Origin: Paenibacillus donghaensis
GTDB lineage: Bacteria; Bacillota; Bacilli; Paenibacillales; Paenibacillaceae
Length of the DNA stretch: 64,000 nt
NCBI RefSeq assembly: GCF_002192415.1
Contig: NZ_CP021780.1
Coordinates: forward strand, 2,480,001-2,544,000
Direction: 5' to 3'
Numbering within the stretch: position 1 is the stretch's first letter; each line of letters opens with the position of its first letter. Under the pieces are notes generated by a model. It saw nothing but the letters and a program-made list of their open reading frames with translations, did not search any database and had not been told where the DNA came from. Position numbers and translations under genes: made by a program. Positions 10,511 to 53,601 of the stretch are shown piece by piece.

Positions 10511-11217
10511 GTATCTCATACAAACGTGCCCGGGCGATATTTGTGAAGGATTACAAAGAGTTTTCCCGCAATTATGCGATCTCGATTATTCTGATATTTC
10601 CCATACTCTTCGCATTTCTTTTTCGAAGTGCAGGCTCGTCTTTACCTGGAGCTATCGGTTTTCTTCTAAATACATCATTAGTGATTCTAACGAGTCTGGC
10701 ACAAGCCTGCTTGATCGCGGAAGAGAAGGAGCGTAACACTTTACGGTCATTAATGCTGACTCCGGCCACGACCATGGATGTTCTCATCGGTAAAAGCAGT
10801 TTGGTCTTTGTCATGTCTGCTGTTGTTCTGGCTATTTCCACATATATATTGGGCTATGAGCCAGCTAATATAGGGGCGTTTGTGGCAGCAATTATTCTTT
10901 CGATTATTCTGTACACAGCAGCCGGGACGATCTGCGGTTTATTCTCCAAGACGGTGCTTGAAGCCTCATTATCTATACTTCCTGTGGCGTTCATATTCAC
11001 CGGTGCACCCTGGGGAGCGCAATTTGTGGAGGATTATCCGGTCTTCAAAGTGCTGGATTACATGCCAAGCAGTCAGCTTGTGCATTTGCTGGGTCTAAGC
11101 AATACAGGTTATACGACAGGCGATGTATTGAAACCTCTCCTCATCATTTTGGCATGGACGGTTGTATTAACGATTGTGTCTGTTGTTTTGTATCAACGAC
11201 GGTTAAAGGATGAGTAG
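10507..11217 (+). CDS. ABC-2 type permease
   Basis: 236 residues with about six hydrophobic segments: ISIILIFPILFAFLF near residue 25, then SLVILTSLAQACL, SSLVFVMSAVVLAIST, AFVAAIILSIILYTAA, SLSILPVAFIFTGAP and a final LLIILAWTVVLTIVSVVL. EEKERNTLRSLMLTP between the second and third segments is the conserved coupling region of ABC-2 permeases. Partner of the ATPase encoded immediately upstream. Confidence 0.88.
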   Translation: MSISYKRARAIFVKDYKEFSRNYAISIILIFPILFAFLFRSAGSSLPGAIGFLLNTSLVILTSLAQACLIAEEKERNTLRSLMLTPATTMDVLIGKSSLVFVMSAVVLAISTYILGYEPANIGAFVAAIILSIILYTAAGTICGLFSKTVLEASLSILPVAFIFTGAPWGAQFVEDYPVFKVLDYMPSSQLVHLLGLSNTGYTTGDVLKPLLIILAWTVVLTIVSVVLYQRRLKDE

Positions 11218-36829: not shown

Positions 36830-37539
36830 CTAACTCCCTTTCGGTGTCCAAGTAAGGCATGGCTGGTACGACTTGTATATCATCCAAGAGATAGAGGTGT
36901 GACGTAGATCGTGTAGACGGATCGGTTTAAGGCCGTGCTGGCGATGAAATGCTATCCAGCGCTTAGTGAGGCGCTCCGGGTCAGAAGGGAAGCCATTAGT
37001 TCGACAGAATAAGAACACCTAGTCATTTGCAACCCACTTATCCCCTAACTGCAGCTTCATTTTAGCCCACTCCAACCTGTAGGCTTTTAATTCATCTATA
37101 ACGGAAGTTGGGATTGCGATTACTCGTCTTGAGTGTTTATTCTTAGGTCCCTTGATAACCGGAGCTCCATCTTTATACATTGTTACGGTTTGCTTTATGT
37201 TAATCGTTCCGTTGATTAGATCAATGTTCCTCCAATCCAAGCCGGCTGTGTTTTGTCTTCGAGCTTACGTTCTACAAACTTAGTGGTCCATATCTCAATG
37301 GATTTACTGAAGGTGAGTTTCTCCGGCCTTATATAGTTACCGGACTCAATTTCCATCTTAAATTTTACTAATTCTTGCTCCAGGTGATTCTGCAGCCGAC
37401 GTGGAGCGCGCAGCAGTTCAGGATCTTCAACTCGAACGGTTTTTCGCTCAAAATCACGTTCCCCTTTTGCGTCATAGCCTAGCTCGACGGTAAGCCGCCA
37501 TGAGGTGTCTCCGCGCTTTTCTATGCTGCCTTTCGCCAT
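36830..37539 (-). pseudogene. decayed tyrosine integrase of the remnant element
   Basis: The start (MAKGSIEKRGDTSWRLTVE) is a close relative of the intact integrase encoded at 39105-40310. After EDKT about 150 residues are missing, including the first catalytic Arg, and the frame changes to AGLDWRNIDLINGTINI. An in-frame stop follows GDKWVAND at 37019, and the text resumes FLFCRTNGFPSDPERL and HDLRHTSISWMIYK. The end with the catalytic GHTD and Tyr is deleted. So there are at least two deletions, a frameshift and a stop. Confidence 0.9.
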
Positions 37540-38067: not shown

Positions 38068-38451
38068 TTTTCGCGTGCAGGGCACGCAGAACTACGTGAA
38101 ATGATGTTTCTAGCCTTGGGTGACAATAAAAGAGTTTTGTGCGAGCGGCGCACAAAAGTGGTTTGTGGCACCAAGCGCCAGAAAATATCCAATCAGTTGT
38201 GCGAATCCCTTTTTCTTCACGCGGTGAAGGAAACACAATACTTTCTGCCGAGCTTCGGCAAAAACTTCAAATAAGACGGTACGACTTTTCACCGAAGCTC
38301 GGTAAAAACCTGATGTATAAGCAATTTCATTCGCCAAGCGACCATAAATAGAGTTTCGTACGCCGGGCGGACAAAACCAATTTCACCAACGGTTGGTGAA
38401 AACTATATCTCACTGAGCACCCAGAGCTTTCCGTCACTGCGTGACGAAAAC
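38068..38451. repeat. hairpin array A (10 different short hairpins)
   Basis: Ten short inverted repeats, 25-50 bp apart, each framed by a T-run on the left and an A-run on the right. Examples: TTTTGTGCG...CGCACAAAA (38135-38157), TGCCGA-GCT-TCGGCA (near 38245-38262), TTTCACCAAC-G-GTTGGTGAAA (38381-38402), CGTCAC-TGC-GTGACG (near 38431-38446). Stems differ from one another, so this is not a CRISPR or simple tandem repeat. The order matches array B in the neighbouring element. No long coding frame uses the region. Confidence 0.85.
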
Positions 38452-38630
38452 TTCTCAAGAACTTTCAACGTTCTATGAGCGCCAAATTGGGATCTTTACT
38501 AAGCCAACTACTGCACCTCAAGGGACTGGCAGCGAATGCGAATCCTGAAGCACCTGTAAGAAGAGGGTTGGTAAAAGAGTAATCAATAAAGGCGGGGCCC
38601 AGTGTATGGGAGCACATACCTGATGTTCTC

Positions 38631-38780
38631 ATGGTAAAGAATGTACAGGAGATATTGAAGATAGGGAGAAAGCAAGCCTATGACTTGATGGCTTCCGGTC
38701 AGTTTCATTGTATTAGGATTGGTCGGAAATGGTTGATAGCAAAACAGGGTTTTGTTGAATGGTTGGAGGGTGATCGATAA
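38631..38780 (+). CDS. excisionase-like HTH protein
   Basis: 49 codons from ATG at 38631: VQEILKIGRKQAYDLM, then FHCIRIGRKWLIAKQGFVEW. This is the helix-turn-helix 17 (MerR-like/excisionase) module that binds att DNA or early promoters. The frame is open upstream to 38583 (WEHIPDVL precedes), so the natural start may be non-ATG and a few codons earlier. It ends 124 bp before the 54-bp direct repeat. Related proteins are encoded at 43137-43505 and 44363-44548. Confidence 0.65.
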   Translation: MVKNVQEILKIGRKQAYDLMASGQFHCIRIGRKWLIAKQGFVEWLEGDR

Positions 38781-38903
38781 TAAATATTGAGTCGTAGAGT
38801 AGAAAAACATCTAGAAATTCAGCACCCAATCGGCACCCAAATCATGATATTAGCTGAGTACACTGCATTGTAGAAACTACTTAATTCCTTTCTACATAAG
38901 GCT

Positions 38904-38957
38904 TTACACAAAAATAATCGGGGCCCTATCTCTAGGGCCCCTTTCATGGGAGAGGAG
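38904..38957. repeat. left 54-bp direct repeat (attL-like)
   Basis: Starts TTACACAAAAATAATCGG and ends GGGAGAGGAG; identical base for base to 53548-53601. It contains a hairpin GGGGCCC-TATCTCTA-GGGCCCC followed by TTT, so it is probably the terminator of a host gene used as the attachment site. The integrase gene begins 150 bp inside. Confidence 0.85.
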
Positions 38958-39104
38958 TCGAATGAGAAAATTATAGCTTCTTCAAAATCGCGAAACCCTT
39001 GGTACATTGGGATTTTTGTGAAAATAGGAGAGGGGTGGAAGGGCTGTTTTTTGGCCGTTTTTGCAAATTTGGTGCCCACATGGTGCCCAGTTTCGTTCCC
39101 CGTT

Positions 39105-40310
39105 TTAAGCTTTCTTTTTCGTAGGTATAATCATGTCATCAAAGACATCGGCAGCAGCCTGATCCACTGACTCGAATATGTGACCGTAAATCTCCAGCAT
39201 CTTCATGTCAGTATGTCCCGCACGTTTGGCGATTGCCTTCGAATGAACCTTTTTATAGATCATCCATGAAATAGAAGTATGACGGAGGTCATGCAGACGG
39301 ATCGGCTTAAGATTATGTTTGCGATGAAATGCTATCCAGCGCTTAGTGAGACGCTCCGGATCAGAGGGCACTCCACTGGTTCTGCAGAATAGGAACTCTG
39401 AATCCCCCGCTGTCCATTTATCCCCCAGCAGCAACTTCATTTTGGACCATTCGGTTCTGTACAGCTTCATCTCATCTAAGACAGTCGGTGCAAGTGAGAT
39501 ACGCCGTTTTGATTGTTTGTTTTTAGGTCCTTTAATGACCGGAGCCCCGTCCTTAAACATAGTCACAGTTTGCTTTATGTCAATAATACCATTGACCAGA
39601 TCGATGTTCTTCCATTCCAGTCCGGCTAGTTCAGCACGGCGCATGCCGGTTGTTACAGCTAATGTGACTTGAAGTCGGAGCTGGATTGGCTCGTCCTCAA
39701 GCGCCACAAAGAGCTTCTCAATTTCCTTCTCGTCATAGTATTCCATTTCTTTGATGTCATTCTCACGAGGCTTCTTAACCCCGATCATGGGATTCTCTTT
39801 CAGAACACGCCACTCAACCGCCTTGGCGAAAATGCTGCGCAGTACCCGGTAGTTGTAAACGATGGTTGCAGATCCAAGCGGCTTGCCCTCTTTGTTAAGG
39901 CTGGCCTCAGGCGTTCGAAGATAGTCCAGGTAATCAGTGATGTGCATGGTTTTAATCTTGTCCATATGCATATCGCCAAAGTAAGGGAGTATGCGGCGCT
40001 CCGTATGGAATTTGTAACTGACTTTTGTCTTCTCTTCCAGTTCAGGCTCCACGAACTTTACAATCCATTTCTTGATATAGGCTTCGAATGTAAGCTTCTC
40101 AGGCTTGATGTAATTCCCCGCATCCACTTCCATTTGGAACTTCACCAATTCAGCGTCAAGATAGTTCTGCAGCCGCCGGGGTGCCCGCAGCAGGGCTGGA
40201 TCATCGACCTTGATCGTTCTGCGCTCCTGGACCCGTTTACCTTGGGCGTCATAGCCGAGTTCGGCGACCAACCGCCAGCGGTTCTCACCGCGTTTCTGAA
40301 TACTTGCCAT
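39105..40310 (-). CDS. int: tyrosine recombinase (integrase)
   Basis: 401 residues. N-terminal arm-binding domain (ENRWRLVAELGYDAQGK), core-binding SAM-like domain (TFEAYIKKWIVKFVEPELE), and a complete catalytic domain: Arg in TTGMRRAELAGLEW, HDLRHTS, GHTDMKMLEIYGH with the His and the Tyr nucleophile. Phage type. ATG at 40310 with GGGAGG upstream. It lies at the left border with its 3' end towards attL, and shares a divergent promoter region with the coiled-coil gene. Closely related to the decayed copy at 36830-37539. Confidence 0.95.
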   Translation of the reverse strand: MASIQKRGENRWRLVAELGYDAQGKRVQERRTIKVDDPALLRAPRRLQNYLDAELVKFQMEVDAGNYIKPEKLTFEAYIKKWIVKFVEPELEEKTKVSYKFHTERRILPYFGDMHMDKIKTMHITDYLDYLRTPEASLNKEGKPLGSATIVYNYRVLRSIFAKAVEWRVLKENPMIGVKKPRENDIKEMEYYDEKEIEKLFVALEDEPIQLRLQVTLAVTTGMRRAELAGLEWKNIDLVNGIIDIKQTVTMFKDGAPVIKGPKNKQSKRRISLAPTVLDEMKLYRTEWSKMKLLLGDKWTAGDSEFLFCRTSGVPSDPERLTKRWIAFHRKHNLKPIRLHDLRHTSISWMIYKKVHSKAIAKRAGHTDMKMLEIYGHIFESVDQAAADVFDDMIIPTKKKA

Positions 40311-40387
40311 AATATAAATACCTCCCGGTAGAATAAAATATTTGATTCTGGTACAATCTATATATCAAGTTTGAAGGAGCGGAGCAC

Positions 40388-40684
40388 ATGGATAATGATT
40401 TGGTGCAGTTATTGCGGTCCGTTATTCGGGAAGAATTAGCACCCGTAAATGACCGGTTGGACCGTAACGATGAACGGCTGGATGGTATAAGCCAGCATCT
40501 TGGGAACATCGACCAGCGTCTGAACCACATTGAGGAAGATCAGCACCTCATTAAGAGTGCTGTACTGGATACCAACGAACGCCTTATCAATGTTGAGTCT
40601 TTATTGGAGAATCAGCACAGGATTATTGAACTGCTCTCGGCGCGTTCTATAGAGCAGGAAGCAAAGCTTAAACGAATTAAATAG
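40388..40684 (+). CDS. small coiled-coil protein beside integrase
   Basis: 98 residues, ATG at 40388 after AAGGAGCGGAG. The chain is a continuous heptad coiled coil (RLDRNDERLDGISQHLGN; QRLNHIEEDQHLIKSAV; ERLINVESLLENQHRII). It keeps the N and C termini of its 77-residue paralogue at 37627-37860 but has one more coiled-coil unit. It sits divergent from int with an extended -10 TGGTACAAT in between. May control integrase or act as a structural tether. Function not known. Confidence 0.8.
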   Translation: MDNDLVQLLRSVIREELAPVNDRLDRNDERLDGISQHLGNIDQRLNHIEEDQHLIKSAVLDTNERLINVESLLENQHRIIELLSARSIEQEAKLKRIK

Positions 40685-40691
40685 ATTGCAC

Positions 40692-40723
40692 AGTCCGGCA
40701 CGGTCAGGTGTCGGACTTTTCTT
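40692..40723 (+). terminator. terminator after coiled-coil gene
   Basis: AGTCCGGCAC / GTGTCGGACT stem with TTTTCTTTG after. Downstream, CTGACTATATCGTCAC at 40809 matches 37989, showing that the element and the remnant share this flank. Confidence 0.8.
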
Positions 40724-40875
40724 TGTTTTGTGACCAAGTTAATACGAATTACGGCCTATGTGAGCGGAGGGGATATTTGTATCTCCAGAGGCCGTGAGAG
40801 TGAATTTGCTGACTATATCGTCACTTTTGAGGGCTTAAAATGCATGTCAACTGGAACTGCTATCTAACTTTTCAT

Positions 40876-41307
40876 TTATGGATTGATCTTTTTGAGGACA
40901 TTGACATAAAGGGCTCTTAATCGAACAATGGACCGAGAATCAAATTTGTTGAAATCACTATCAGAATATTTTTGATTAAGAAAGCGTGAATGAAATGTTT
41001 TGTCAGTAGTTACTACCGCCGGTTCAAATATTTCCTCAAACTGATCTGCAGTAATATCAATAATAAGATCGTTATACTCCAACCAAGCATGTGATTGTCC
41101 CTTACGCCATCCACATACATAAATTGTTTCAACACCGTGTTGCTCTCTCAGGTACTTTGCAAGGAGGTTACTTGCATCTCCACAACATGCTCGCGGGAAT
41201 CGATTAAACCAGGGCGACATCGAATATTCTGATATATCCATTTTTTCAATTGCCCTGCGAAAGAGTGTGGCTGAATCATAAATTTTTCTATGAAGTTCCT
41301 GTTCCAT
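40876..41307 (-). CDS. transglutaminase/papain-like small cysteine enzyme
   Basis: 143 residues, ATG at 41307 after GGAGGG. A Cys-His-Asp order typical of the transglutaminase/papain fold is visible: FPRACCGDASNLLAKYL (Cys near 42), QSHAWLEY (His near 80) and LIIDITADQF (Asp near 90). No signal peptide. In the remnant element this gene is missing between the same flanking blocks, so it is inserted cargo. It may cleave or modify peptide or amide bonds. Target unknown; a defence, effector or toxin-type function is only inferred. Confidence 0.65.
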   Translation of the reverse strand: MEQELHRKIYDSATLFRRAIEKMDISEYSMSPWFNRFPRACCGDASNLLAKYLREQHGVETIYVCGWRKGQSHAWLEYNDLIIDITADQFEEIFEPAVVTTDKTFHSRFLNQKYSDSDFNKFDSRSIVRLRALYVNVLKKINP

Positions 41308-41335
41308 GGAACCCTCCTATTAAAAGGCTAATTGA

Positions 41336-41901
41336 TTTCGCGTGCAGGGCGCGCAAAACTATGTCCAATGAGTTTTATGCGAGCGCCGCATAAAAGTGTT
41401 TTTTGGCGCTGAGCACTAGTGGATATCTATTCAGTTATGCGAAGTTCTTTTTTCTTCACGCGGTGAAGGTAACTCAATACTTTCTGCCGAGCTTCGGCAA
41501 AAACATTATATACGCCAGTCTGACTTTTCACCGAAGGCCGGTGAAAACTTGATGTATAAGTAATTTCAGTCGCCCAGCGACCATTAAATTAGTTTCGTAC
41601 GCCGGGCGGACAAAACCAATTTCACCAACGGTTGGTGAAAAACTATATTTCAATGATTACCTGGAGTTTTCCGTCACCGAGTGACGAATACTTCTTCTGG
41701 AAAATTGGGCCTTTGTGTACCGACTCCGTACGAAACTTCTGTTTTGTTCACCGCGTGAACAGAACTACTAAAAGATCCTTACAGAGCGATGCATAGTTTT
41801 CACCGCCGAGCGGTAAAAACTCCTTGACTGTACCCCTAGAGTTTTTGCCACTCGGCAGCAAAAACTCTTTTCATGAATTTTTTATTGCCTGGCAATGAAA
41901 A
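41336..41901. repeat. hairpin array B (about 15 different short hairpins)
   Basis: About 15 hairpins with mutually different stems and 1-7-base loops, flanked by T-runs and A-runs (GTTTT...AAAAC). Clear examples: TTTTATGCG...CGCATAAAA (41373-41395), TTTTCACCG...CGGTGAAAA (41525-41547), TTTCACCAAC...GTTGGTGAAA (near 41620-41640), TGTTCAC-CGC-GTGAACA (near 41744-41761), ATTGCC-T-GGCAAT (near 41884-41896). The first ten occur in the same order as in array A; the last five are extra. Hairpin 2 shows a compensatory G-C to A-T change against array A. Confidence 0.87.
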
Positions 41902-42108
41902 TCACTCATTGGATTTAGTCGGCAGCTGTCTTGCATGCATACGTAGAAAATCAACCAAAGGCATTTTCAAATATGTATCATGTTTTCTAAGCGCACGTAT
42001 TAATATCGGTTCGAATGCGTCTGCAATAGCTTGGATAGGATCACCTTCGACTGGGACAAATTCAATCTCGATTTCAGGGCGTTTTCTGATTTTTCTCGTT
42101 TTTTTCAT
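41902..42108 (-). CDS. 68-residue hypothetical protein
   Basis: ATG at 42108 with AAGGAG upstream on the minus strand; a longer frame from 42186 lacks a ribosome site. Basic start (MKKTRKIRKRPEIEIEFV), then PVEGDPIQAIADAFEPILI and a basic helix. Looks like a small protein associated with phage or recombinase operons. Family not recognised. It is divergent from the HEPN-like gene. Confidence 0.55.
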   Translation of the reverse strand: MKKTRKIRKRPEIEIEFVPVEGDPIQAIADAFEPILIRALRKHDTYLKMPLVDFLRMHARQLPTKSNE

Positions 42109-42180: not shown

Positions 42181-43026
42181 ATGCAAGATGTTATTGATGC
42201 TTACGTAATTGAAAACGTCGAATTAGACAAATCCGAATACTTTATTAATGAATACATATCACTGTCAACATTGGATGATAAAAAAGTCCTGGTAAGTATA
42301 AATAAAACTGAGCCTGGTCCTGTAACTTATGAATCTAATGGATACCTGTTCTTTCATGCACTTCAATTAGGGCTCCCAAGACTAAATATTCGCATCTCAG
42401 AGCCGCCTAGGCCTTATGGACGCATTGCTTATGGAATAGTGGGAAAGTGGAATACTCCTTTATTTAAGTTTTCTTCAGCCATTAACGATGATATTGAACA
42501 GGATAGCTCTTCTGCATATATTACTGAACAAGACATACAGGACATAATTAGGTTCTTTGAAATTTACAAAGCGCATAGTAAAGTTTCAAGGGGAAAACGT
42601 CAGGTTTCTGAGTGGAGGGAGACGAGATGGAGTTATGCACTTAATCAATACACTGAAGCGTGTCTCTCTACCACAATTGAAAGTAGTAATCAAGCTCTTA
42701 TTACAGGATTAGAGGCATTACTTGTATCAGGTGAAGGTAACCTTCAATATAAGGTTTCGCTCAATGCGGCCCTCATATTGGCTGATTCCTACGAGCAAAG
42801 AACTGATATTATGGGTCGAGTCAAAAAGATGTACAACTTACGCAGCAAAGCTACTCATGGTGAAATTGCAGCGCTCGTTAAGCTTCTAAACAAATCAAGT
42901 GTCTATGACGATTACTTCGAGTTGAAGAAAATCTTCTCCCAGTTGCTGCTTCTTACATATGGTAAAAGTGAAGAAGAGATATTTAATCGGCTGGACGTTG
43001 TACTACTCAGCGGACCTTCATTCTGA
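42181..43026 (+). CDS. HEPN (Apea-like) domain protein, cargo
   Basis: 281 residues from ATG at 42181, six bases after GGAGGGG; an in-frame extension to 42031 overlaps the divergent gene and is rejected. The C-terminal 130 residues fit Apea-like HEPN: SNQALITGLEALLVSGEGN, then SLNAALILADSYEQR, then YNLRSKATHGE, whose R-x4-H is the HEPN RNase motif. The N-terminal half is beta-rich and of unknown fold. HEPN RNases are common in toxin-antitoxin and abortive-infection systems. No obvious antitoxin is adjacent except the small divergent gene. Confidence 0.65.
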   Translation: MQDVIDAYVIENVELDKSEYFINEYISLSTLDDKKVLVSINKTEPGPVTYESNGYLFFHALQLGLPRLNIRISEPPRPYGRIAYGIVGKWNTPLFKFSSAINDDIEQDSSSAYITEQDIQDIIRFFEIYKAHSKVSRGKRQVSEWRETRWSYALNQYTEACLSTTIESSNQALITGLEALLVSGEGNLQYKVSLNAALILADSYEQRTDIMGRVKKMYNLRSKATHGEIAALVKLLNKSSVYDDYFELKKIFSQLLLLTYGKSEEEIFNRLDVVLLSGPSF

Positions 43027-43697: not shown

Positions 43698-44225
43698 TTA
43701 TTGGCGATCAGGGAACAAGATAGCGAGCATATCTAAGATACGCTGGCGGTCTTTATCGGAGAGGGTTTGACCGCGATACATTATTCCCTTTGTATTTAAC
43801 AACAACCAGAGTTCACGATCCTTCGGATTTTCAAAATCACCATCGTTTGAATGATTGTATATTGCTCTGTATTTCGTTTTGGTTGCATCAAGTTCCTTCC
43901 GTAACTCAAAGGCCTCTTCATCAAAGTAAATATCGTCTCCAACAAATAGTGTTAATTTTCCCATGCTGTTTCTATCATATTTTTGCTCTCGTGACACATA
44001 AGTAGGGATGTGCCCTGCGTACATCATTAAATTAAAAGGGGATTCTCCTAAATGCCCTGCTATTTTTCCTAATATTTCTGCTGATGGCATCTTTTTAAGC
44101 TTCCCATTTTCAATTTGTGATAAATACGGATGAGAAACTCCAGTCTTTTCAGCGAGCTCGGTCAGATTGTAGCCTTTTTTCTTGCGTAAGTCCCTTATAT
44201 ATTCCCCGAATTCAGTAATATTCAA
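43698..44225 (-). CDS. cI-like phage repressor (HTH Xre family)
   Basis: 175 residues. N-terminal helix-turn-helix at residues 3-60 (YIRDLRKKKGYNLTELA, SHPYLSQIENGKLKKMP). The remainder has no peptidase catalytic motif, so it is not a self-cleaving LexA-like repressor; induction would need an antirepressor, as in satellites. ATG at 44225, divergent from the rightward operon, with a three-copy operator in the gap. Probably keeps the element silent. Confidence 0.85.
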   Translation of the reverse strand: MNITEFGEYIRDLRKKKGYNLTELAEKTGVSHPYLSQIENGKLKKMPSAEILGKIAGHLGESPFNLMMYAGHIPTYVSREQKYDRNSMGKLTLFVGDDIYFDEEAFELRKELDATKTKYRAIYNHSNDGDFENPKDRELWLLLNTKGIMYRGQTLSDKDRQRILDMLAILFPDRQ

Positions 44226-53309: not shown

Positions 53310-53474
53310 ACGACGCCTTACGTTGTCTCCATGATTGAGATCGCCGTCCTTTACATGCTTCAGGCGTTTGCCAATCTCAAGCAAAGATTGTCCCGCGATT
53401 TGTTTATAGCTGTTTATCTCAGCGGTGATAACCTGAAGACCAGTTGAAGTTAATAAATGAAAACGGTGCCCCAT
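53310..53474 (-). pseudogene. fragment of a DUF3102-like gene
   Basis: On the minus strand: [18 protein letters not shown], then [20 protein letters not shown]. This is the typical start of DUF3102 proteins found in phages and conjugative elements. The domain breaks off after about 55 residues, so it is a remnant near the right end of the element. Confidence 0.5.
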
Positions 53475-53547
53475 TGGTGCCCAATCGCTGATTTTTGAAG
53501 GTTAATCGCTGTGAGGAATGTTGAATAAACCCTTGATACATATGTCA

Positions 53548-53601
53548 TTACACAAAAATAATCGGGGCCCTATCTCTAGGGCCCCTTTCATGGGAGAGGA
53601 G
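53548..53601. repeat. right 54-bp direct repeat (attR-like)
   Basis: Identical to 38904-38957, including the GGGGCCC hairpin. From here to rsmD (53862) no gene is evident. Confidence 0.85.

Follow-up and report, generated by a model that had tools for sequence, protein, structure and literature searches.

What element in the chromosome of Paenibacillus donghaensis consists of two rows of short palindromes in which almost every palindrome differs from the next? The rows, which we call arrays A and B, lie in a stretch of 64,000 nucleotides (RefSeq assembly GCF_002192415.1, contig NZ_CP021780.1, positions 2,480,001 to 2,544,000 of the forward strand; hereafter the window). A single prophage element, present twice, accounts for both arrays, which hence are not independent of each other. 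Computation established a fixed unit geometry, a paired core with a free centre, borders that are mirrored without covarying, conservation of the units, words common to distant arrays, and no clear signature of one RNA strand. On this basis we propose, with a probability of roughly 0.36, a non-coding array of DNA sites carried by a prophage, in which each site has two-fold symmetry and a core recognized as a hairpin or cruciform. A first-pass annotation, made from the letters of the window, had offered several roles, and single-stranded-DNA or cruciform sites, or protein-binding sites, are the ones we prefer.

At a single fixed threshold for 23-nt units, array A contained 10 units and array B 13. 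Two further, degenerate units were recognized by eye in array B, near 41400 and 41562, which brings its total to 15, and the 10 and 15 hairpins originally counted therefore stand. When strict ends and at least five of six core pairs were demanded, 9 units remained in A and 11 in B, compared with means of 0.02 and 0.04 (maximum 1) in 500 dinucleotide shuffles of each array, and the remaining 62,980 bases of the window contained no strict unit. In array B, 3–32 bp separate adjacent units where no degenerate unit intervenes. We also recovered the common order of stems in the two arrays and the compensatory change of hairpin 2, from GTGCG/CGCAC in A to ATGCG/CGCAT in B. Neither array contains an open frame of at least 80 codons, in keeping with the original view that they are non-coding. 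An origin as coding repeats was rejected on this ground and because other arrays have only short frames, most of which are unshared beyond DNA identity.

Each unit is built as TTTY, a six-base arm, three free bases, the complementary arm, and RAAA, for a total of 23 bases with an odd centre. A scan of lengths gave 102 matches at 21, 23, and 25 bases, nested registers of the same sites included, and none at 20, 22, 24, or 26. Among 94 unique units, core pairs 5–10 were Watson-Crick in 72, 91, 94, 88, 87, and 83% of cases, compared with 30, 30, 31, 67, 51, and 44% expected from column make-up, and the centre pair 11:13 was Watson-Crick in 35% of units versus 33% expected. Because these 94 units had been selected partly by pairing, we ran a second test whose anchor, TTTY-N15-RAAA, ignores the core; this anchor occurs at 67 unique sites in eight arrays (5.7 kb). 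Positions 5–10 were paired in 39, 58, 53, 50, 53, and 48 of these sites and position 11:13 in 23, and at least five of six core pairs were present in 45 of the 67 sites but in 0 of 60 such sites from 549 kb of other loci.

The framing of the hairpins by T runs and A runs, as first described, is present and is stricter than it had seemed (TTTY and RAAA), but covariation is confined to the six core pairs and does not extend to these borders. In 77 unique units, border pair 4:20 was TA in 36, TG in 19, CA in 15, CG in 3, and something else in four (Fisher p = 0.24). The degeneracy is nevertheless mirrored, with T in 56 and C in 18 units on the left and, after complementation, T in 53 and C in 23 on the right. 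Mirrored but independent borders are the trace expected of a two-fold symmetric reader of duplex DNA, and an RNA hairpin gives no reason for them.

Related arrays were found in other genomes. When 100 genomes from the genus were searched at the DNA level, eight gave matches, including the window's own; five carry arrays (G000, G035, G071, G085, and G090) and the other three only short pieces. A covariance model, R1, built from 50 units, added one carrier, G041, which belongs to another family of the same order and has two arrays (23 and 26 units) that are up to 95% identical. The arrays thus span two bacterial families. The earlier description of two related arrays in a mobile element holds as to prophage context and is corrected in two respects, in that A and B are copies of one element and that further arrays occur in G035, G071, G085, G090, and, as two near copies, G041.

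The R1 scans covered overlapping sets of genomes, with Infernal's stricter filters for sets of more than 40, and weak or short clusters would escape them. Matches were found in 27 of 394 genomes of the family (E 0.3), five of which had more than two, and in 13 of 392 genomes of the order (E 0.05), where more than two occurred in the five genus carriers and G041. For the phylum and the class, 15 of 398 and 11 of 299 genomes matched, the window's own being the sole genome with more than two matches, and for the family of G041 the figure was 3 of 104, with more than two only in G041. Array B matched none of 50,697 phage and 72,556 plasmid records at the DNA level. No array was present in nine viral contigs encoding a relative of an early phage protein or in three encoding a Bro-N relative. 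A three-hairpin pattern picked out 26 stretches of viral contigs, none with an array, and four single-word patterns gave 0, 0, 1, and 0 matches there, the one being a single weak site that, by eye, lies in a parB-like gene. Two lesser sites were noted along the way. In G702, from another class, a small and tentative cluster of differing hairpins (L125, 9723–10050) lies beside an excisionase-like frame; it was found only by reading around one site, has the words GTACGC and GTGCGA in common with the arrays, and consists mostly of units without borders. In G090, about 14 kb from the array, one further unit-like site (L079, 13722–13744; 29.6 bits) overlaps or adjoins a decayed DUF3102-like frame and may be a chance match.

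Comparison of the arrays separated what is held from what drifts. Among six genus arrays, with the A–B pair left out, identity was 87% in stems, 90% in borders, 74% in loops, and 53% in linkers, the last with many gaps. The first-pass statement that pairing and not sequence is kept is therefore right about core pairing but wrong about sequence, as the units themselves are conserved. A place-by-place comparison gave 11 pair columns with more than one Watson-Crick pair, although six of these come from slots 161 and 642, whose units are of doubtful orthology, and two of the five cleaner columns lie in slot 773, where the word in array B differs strongly. Full pair changes are seen in the five cleaner columns, for example from G-C to A-T in unit 2. 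Between the genus and G041, 15 of 25 distinct words matched at 11 or 12 of 12 core bases, compared with a mean of 3.6 and a maximum of 9 in 300 random sets with the same column pairs. By eye, the G041 words GCGTGC, TGGCGC, TGCCGG, TACCGG, GGTCGC, CACCGC, and CAGCGC, with others interspersed, follow the order of similar genus words, but the rest of the array does not. From the conservation of units and words over linkers, and from the words common to two families, the arrays seem to be related by descent, with the linkers free and the words held.

Rearrangement within the arrays bears on two further explanations. One is that the array is a recombination platform, with folded sites at which a tyrosine recombinase would reorder the DNA between units in the manner of integron attC sites. 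Words are indeed reordered, sometimes flipped, and duplicated between arrays (one G041 array, L122, contains a 128-bp duplication), an integrase lies nearby in the genus phages, and conserved ends, an interior conserved in structure rather than sequence, and arrayed repeats recall attC (PMC2727003). Those sites, however, are 57–142 nt long, flank gene cassettes, and are recombined by IntI, whereas the units here are 23 nt long and no cassette genes lie between those of array B. Moreover, there are no genes between units in general, unit order is unchanged within the genus, and tblastn with the genus integrases found no match in the two G041 loci, all of which makes this explanation very unlikely. 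The second is that perfect palindromes are maintained, and their divergence is slowed, by template switching from arm to arm in an array of little or no function. Homogenization of arms and inversion of spacers by template switching are documented (PMC8604942), and a flip between the two G041 copies accounts better for one of their end units (2 versus 5 differences, by eye). Template switching alone is not enough, however, because border position 4 touches the arm and should also be homogenized but does not covary. The fixed odd-centred length, the TTTY/RAAA borders, and the 8–26 units per row would likewise be left unexplained, and we regard this account as improbable. As a separate observation, L122 also has, by eye, a second run of differing palindromes, even-centred, between the array and a DUF3102-like frame (10600–10800).

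Alternatively, each palindrome could be an ordinary operator for a different dimeric regulator, with the array serving as a set of binding sites or decoys. In favour of this are the dyad symmetry and the conservation of individual words in both bacterial families. On the other hand, identical geometry for 20-odd regulators is unlikely, and the regions that separate the repressor from the early genes in five of five genus phages have no unit, only six isolated matches to six-base words in three of the five. The R1 matches outside arrays that we read were single sites, five of eight of them within an open frame of at least 100 codons. We therefore consider a set of unrelated operators quite unlikely. 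A cluster of operators for the phage's own repressor was rejected because no unit lies at the repressor-controlled promoters of these five phages.

Are the cores selected as DNA or as RNA? Base-paired RNA tolerates G.U but not A.C. In the strict set from all arrays, core mispairs comprised 14 GT and 17 CA, compared with 101 GT and 24 CA in a control of 122 terminator-like hairpins from the same loci, counted with equal weights. An earlier count over all ten stem positions, with the G702 units included, had given 51 GT and 62 CA; it was replaced by the core-only count, since the borders turned out to be unpaired. Because the strict core mispairs show no G.U bias, pairing seems to be kept at the DNA level and the core mispairs seem to carry no RNA signature, which leaves a small probability for a minus-strand RNA. 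The long structured RNA suggested at first is thus disfavoured as far as sequence can tell.

We suggest, then, that a two-fold symmetric protein, from the phage or the host, would read both TTTY borders as duplex DNA and would recognize the six-base palindrome between them because it can fold into a small hairpin or cruciform with a three-base loop. On the row of units, this protein would assemble into a cooperative complex next to the prophage's lysogeny or attachment region, and distinct words would keep adjacent units from mispairing or recombining. For the hairpin-reading step, the promoters of the phage N4 virion RNA polymerase provide a precedent; they are short hairpins with three-base loops that are extruded from duplex DNA and read by a phage protein, the identity of the non-conserved stem bases is irrelevant while the hairpin forms, and cruciforms were detected at a superhelical density of –0.035 with Mg2+ (PMC4496689).

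Several points weigh against this proposal. First, six-base arms are short for spontaneous cruciforms. Second, a pure duplex-binding dimer needs no palindromic positions 5–7, and a pure hairpin reader needs no conserved words. Third, no partner protein emerged from the analysis, and there is no constant partner gene. ORF68, directly right of array B, is interrupted by a stop in G071 and deleted in G085 (two of the five genus phages), and it has no tblastn match in the two G041 loci. Finally, in the genus arrays the core mispairs counted at a loose threshold lean toward CA (33 versus 14 GT), which taken alone is compatible with a minus-strand RNA; the lean is weaker in the strict genus set (14 CA versus 8 GT, p = 0.29) and in a slot-by-slot count (21 CA versus 12 GT), and G041 leans the opposite way (6 GT versus 3 CA strict, 9 GT versus 6 CA loose).

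The loose count would suit a structured RNA expressed in lysogeny, with transcription of the minus strand, the direction of the repressor, ORF68, the Bro-N gene, and the integrase, yielding a row of hairpins that would act as an RNA decoy, scaffold, or leader. Leftward genes lie on either side of the array in the genus phages, and the fold z-score of array B is –7.2 for the minus and –5.3 for the plus strand, although such scores restate that palindromes fold. Against an RNA stand the strict mispair counts and terminator control given above and the borders, which RNA could pair but which do not covary. Promoter-like matches were at chance (4 versus 4.0 and 2 versus 1.9), and no Rfam family scored above its gathering score over the arrays, where weak matches fell below threshold (Chlorobi-RRM, for example, at 22.4 of 45 bits). 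Overall, we judge the RNA explanation unlikely.

How does the proposed DNA array compare with known systems? It is not CRISPR, as the first-pass annotation had recognized, because units differ within an array and near-identical direct repeats are not present. Nor, as it also held, are the units classic terminators, as an A run rather than a T run follows the stem on both strands; four loose terminator-like matches occur around array B, all on its units, compared with 1.6 in shuffles. By description, the nearest system is the TIGR stem-loop arrays, which are phage-associated and contain about a dozen variable yet consistently palindromic sequences (PMC12045711). Here, however, the arms are 3 nt apart and enclose nothing, and the Nop family of TIGR-Tas (PF01798) had no match over cut-off in any of the five genus array genomes, where three weak matches lie far from the arrays. 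REP/BIME clusters and plasmid centromere or iteron arrays are likewise clustered short palindromes in non-coding DNA, but they repeat one sequence, whereas here nearly every unit differs. In N4 promoters the run of four A residues is 5' to the hairpin when read along the folded strand, whereas in the present units it is 3'. Those promoters resemble the units in their short stem, three-base loop, adjacent four-A run, and partly free stem bases but are few in number and have conserved loop bases (PMC4496689). Our search of the literature on hairpin and palindrome arrays, largely in open-access papers, found no such array described.

We know of no family that fits this element. It lies outside every family that could be tested here and appears to be a DNA recognition array of a new kind. 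More tentatively, it may represent a new class of DNA recognition element, in which units with duplex-read TTTY borders and a hairpin-read core form an addressable array whose words come from a restricted, conserved vocabulary; prophages of two or more families would carry it, and it would have its own symmetric reader.

The neighbourhood of the arrays is summarized in Table 1. At both window arrays, which lie in two related prophage copies at one locus, the order is integrase (a remnant in the case of A), coiled-coil gene, array.

Table 1. Coordinates of the arrays and neighbouring genes in the window.
Feature	Position	Strand	Remarks
Array A	38069..38450	.	10 units, starting at 38069, 38135, 38162, 38211, 38242, 38286, 38325, 38354, 38380, 38428
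Array B	41336..41901	.	13 units, starting at 41336, 41373, 41450, 41481, 41525, 41593, 41619, 41668, 41713, 41742, 41797, 41842, 41879
Remnant of second, related integrase (prophage A)	36872..37539	-	
Integrase of prophage B	39105..40310	-	Pfam Phage_integrase, 2.8e-25
Coiled-coil gene	40388..40684	+	relatives in 26 public loci
143-aa cargo gene left of array B	40876..41307	-	start codon 28 bases from first unit
ORF68 (68 aa), directly right of array B	41902..42108	-	
Cargo gene	42181..43026	+	start codon by eye
Phage repressor (HTH_3)	43698..44225	-	right border of lysogeny region

Proceeding rightward from array B, ORF68 is followed by the cargo gene, an HTH_17-type gene, the repressor, early genes, and a capsid gene, beyond which lie the chromosomal ylbH leader and an rsmD-like gene. 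The HTH_17-type gene has an internal stop in the window, and its relative in L012 matches HTH_17. The integrase also matches phage SAM-like domains. Among the proteins scanned, the capsid gene was the single structural gene recognized. A terminator-like sequence repeated at about 38890–38970 and 53545–53600 may delimit prophage B, which would then measure about 14.6 kb, and the ylbH leader RNA (RF00516, 53553–53646) adjoins the prophage and marks the chromosomal side.

Cargo varies on both sides of the array. The position of the 143-aa gene is occupied in four other genus phages by a 278-aa protein, assigned to Bro-N by Pfam in the one tested; this protein (L010:10647–11483, with relatives in L011–L013) lies beside four arrays, and the L010 copy matches the PADLOC phage-defence candidate PDC-S13 (2e-122). 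In the slot between ORF68 and a conserved terminator-like stretch, also present in L010–L013, the window and G085 carry similar cargo, and G090, G035, and G071 carry others.

The neighbouring coiled-coil protein, whose binding to the hairpins had been put forward as a test, was rejected as a partner. Its relatives, from Paenibacillus and Fontibacillus, lie at 26 public loci, and none of the stretches retrieved there has an array (at most two sites in 600 bp), and it has no tblastn match in the two G041 loci. The hairpin-rich peaks at these loci correspond, in the locus read (L018), to a ylbM-like gene, and by eye the coiled-coil relative there adjoins rsmD and coaD. The gene is probably a neighbour of the attachment site.

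The two G041 loci encode, by tblastn, relatives of the tape measure, DUF3102-like frames, and an excisionase-like frame of the genus phages, but no relative of the genus integrase, Bro-N, ORF68, or repressor. A match to the BsrG family of type I toxin RNAs (RF01412, 56.8 bits against a threshold of 55) lies about 100 bp from a G041 array (L121, 9960–10205, minus strand). In the 650 bases scanned for each, perfect palindromes of differing sequence with arms of at least 7 bases accompanied 7 of 11 weaker, mostly phage-like DUF3102 matches (L156, L157, L158, L162, L164, L165, and L166) and 0 of 14 full-length ones; window positions 53329–53438 resemble a DUF3102 remnant.

Palindromes that are so diverse but so strictly built imply a reader that responds not only to the letters of DNA but also to its form. 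Only a few form-reading systems are known, among them the N4 promoters and integron attC sites. Because the arrays are small, discrete, and present in sequenced bacilli, the question of what reads them is directly testable.

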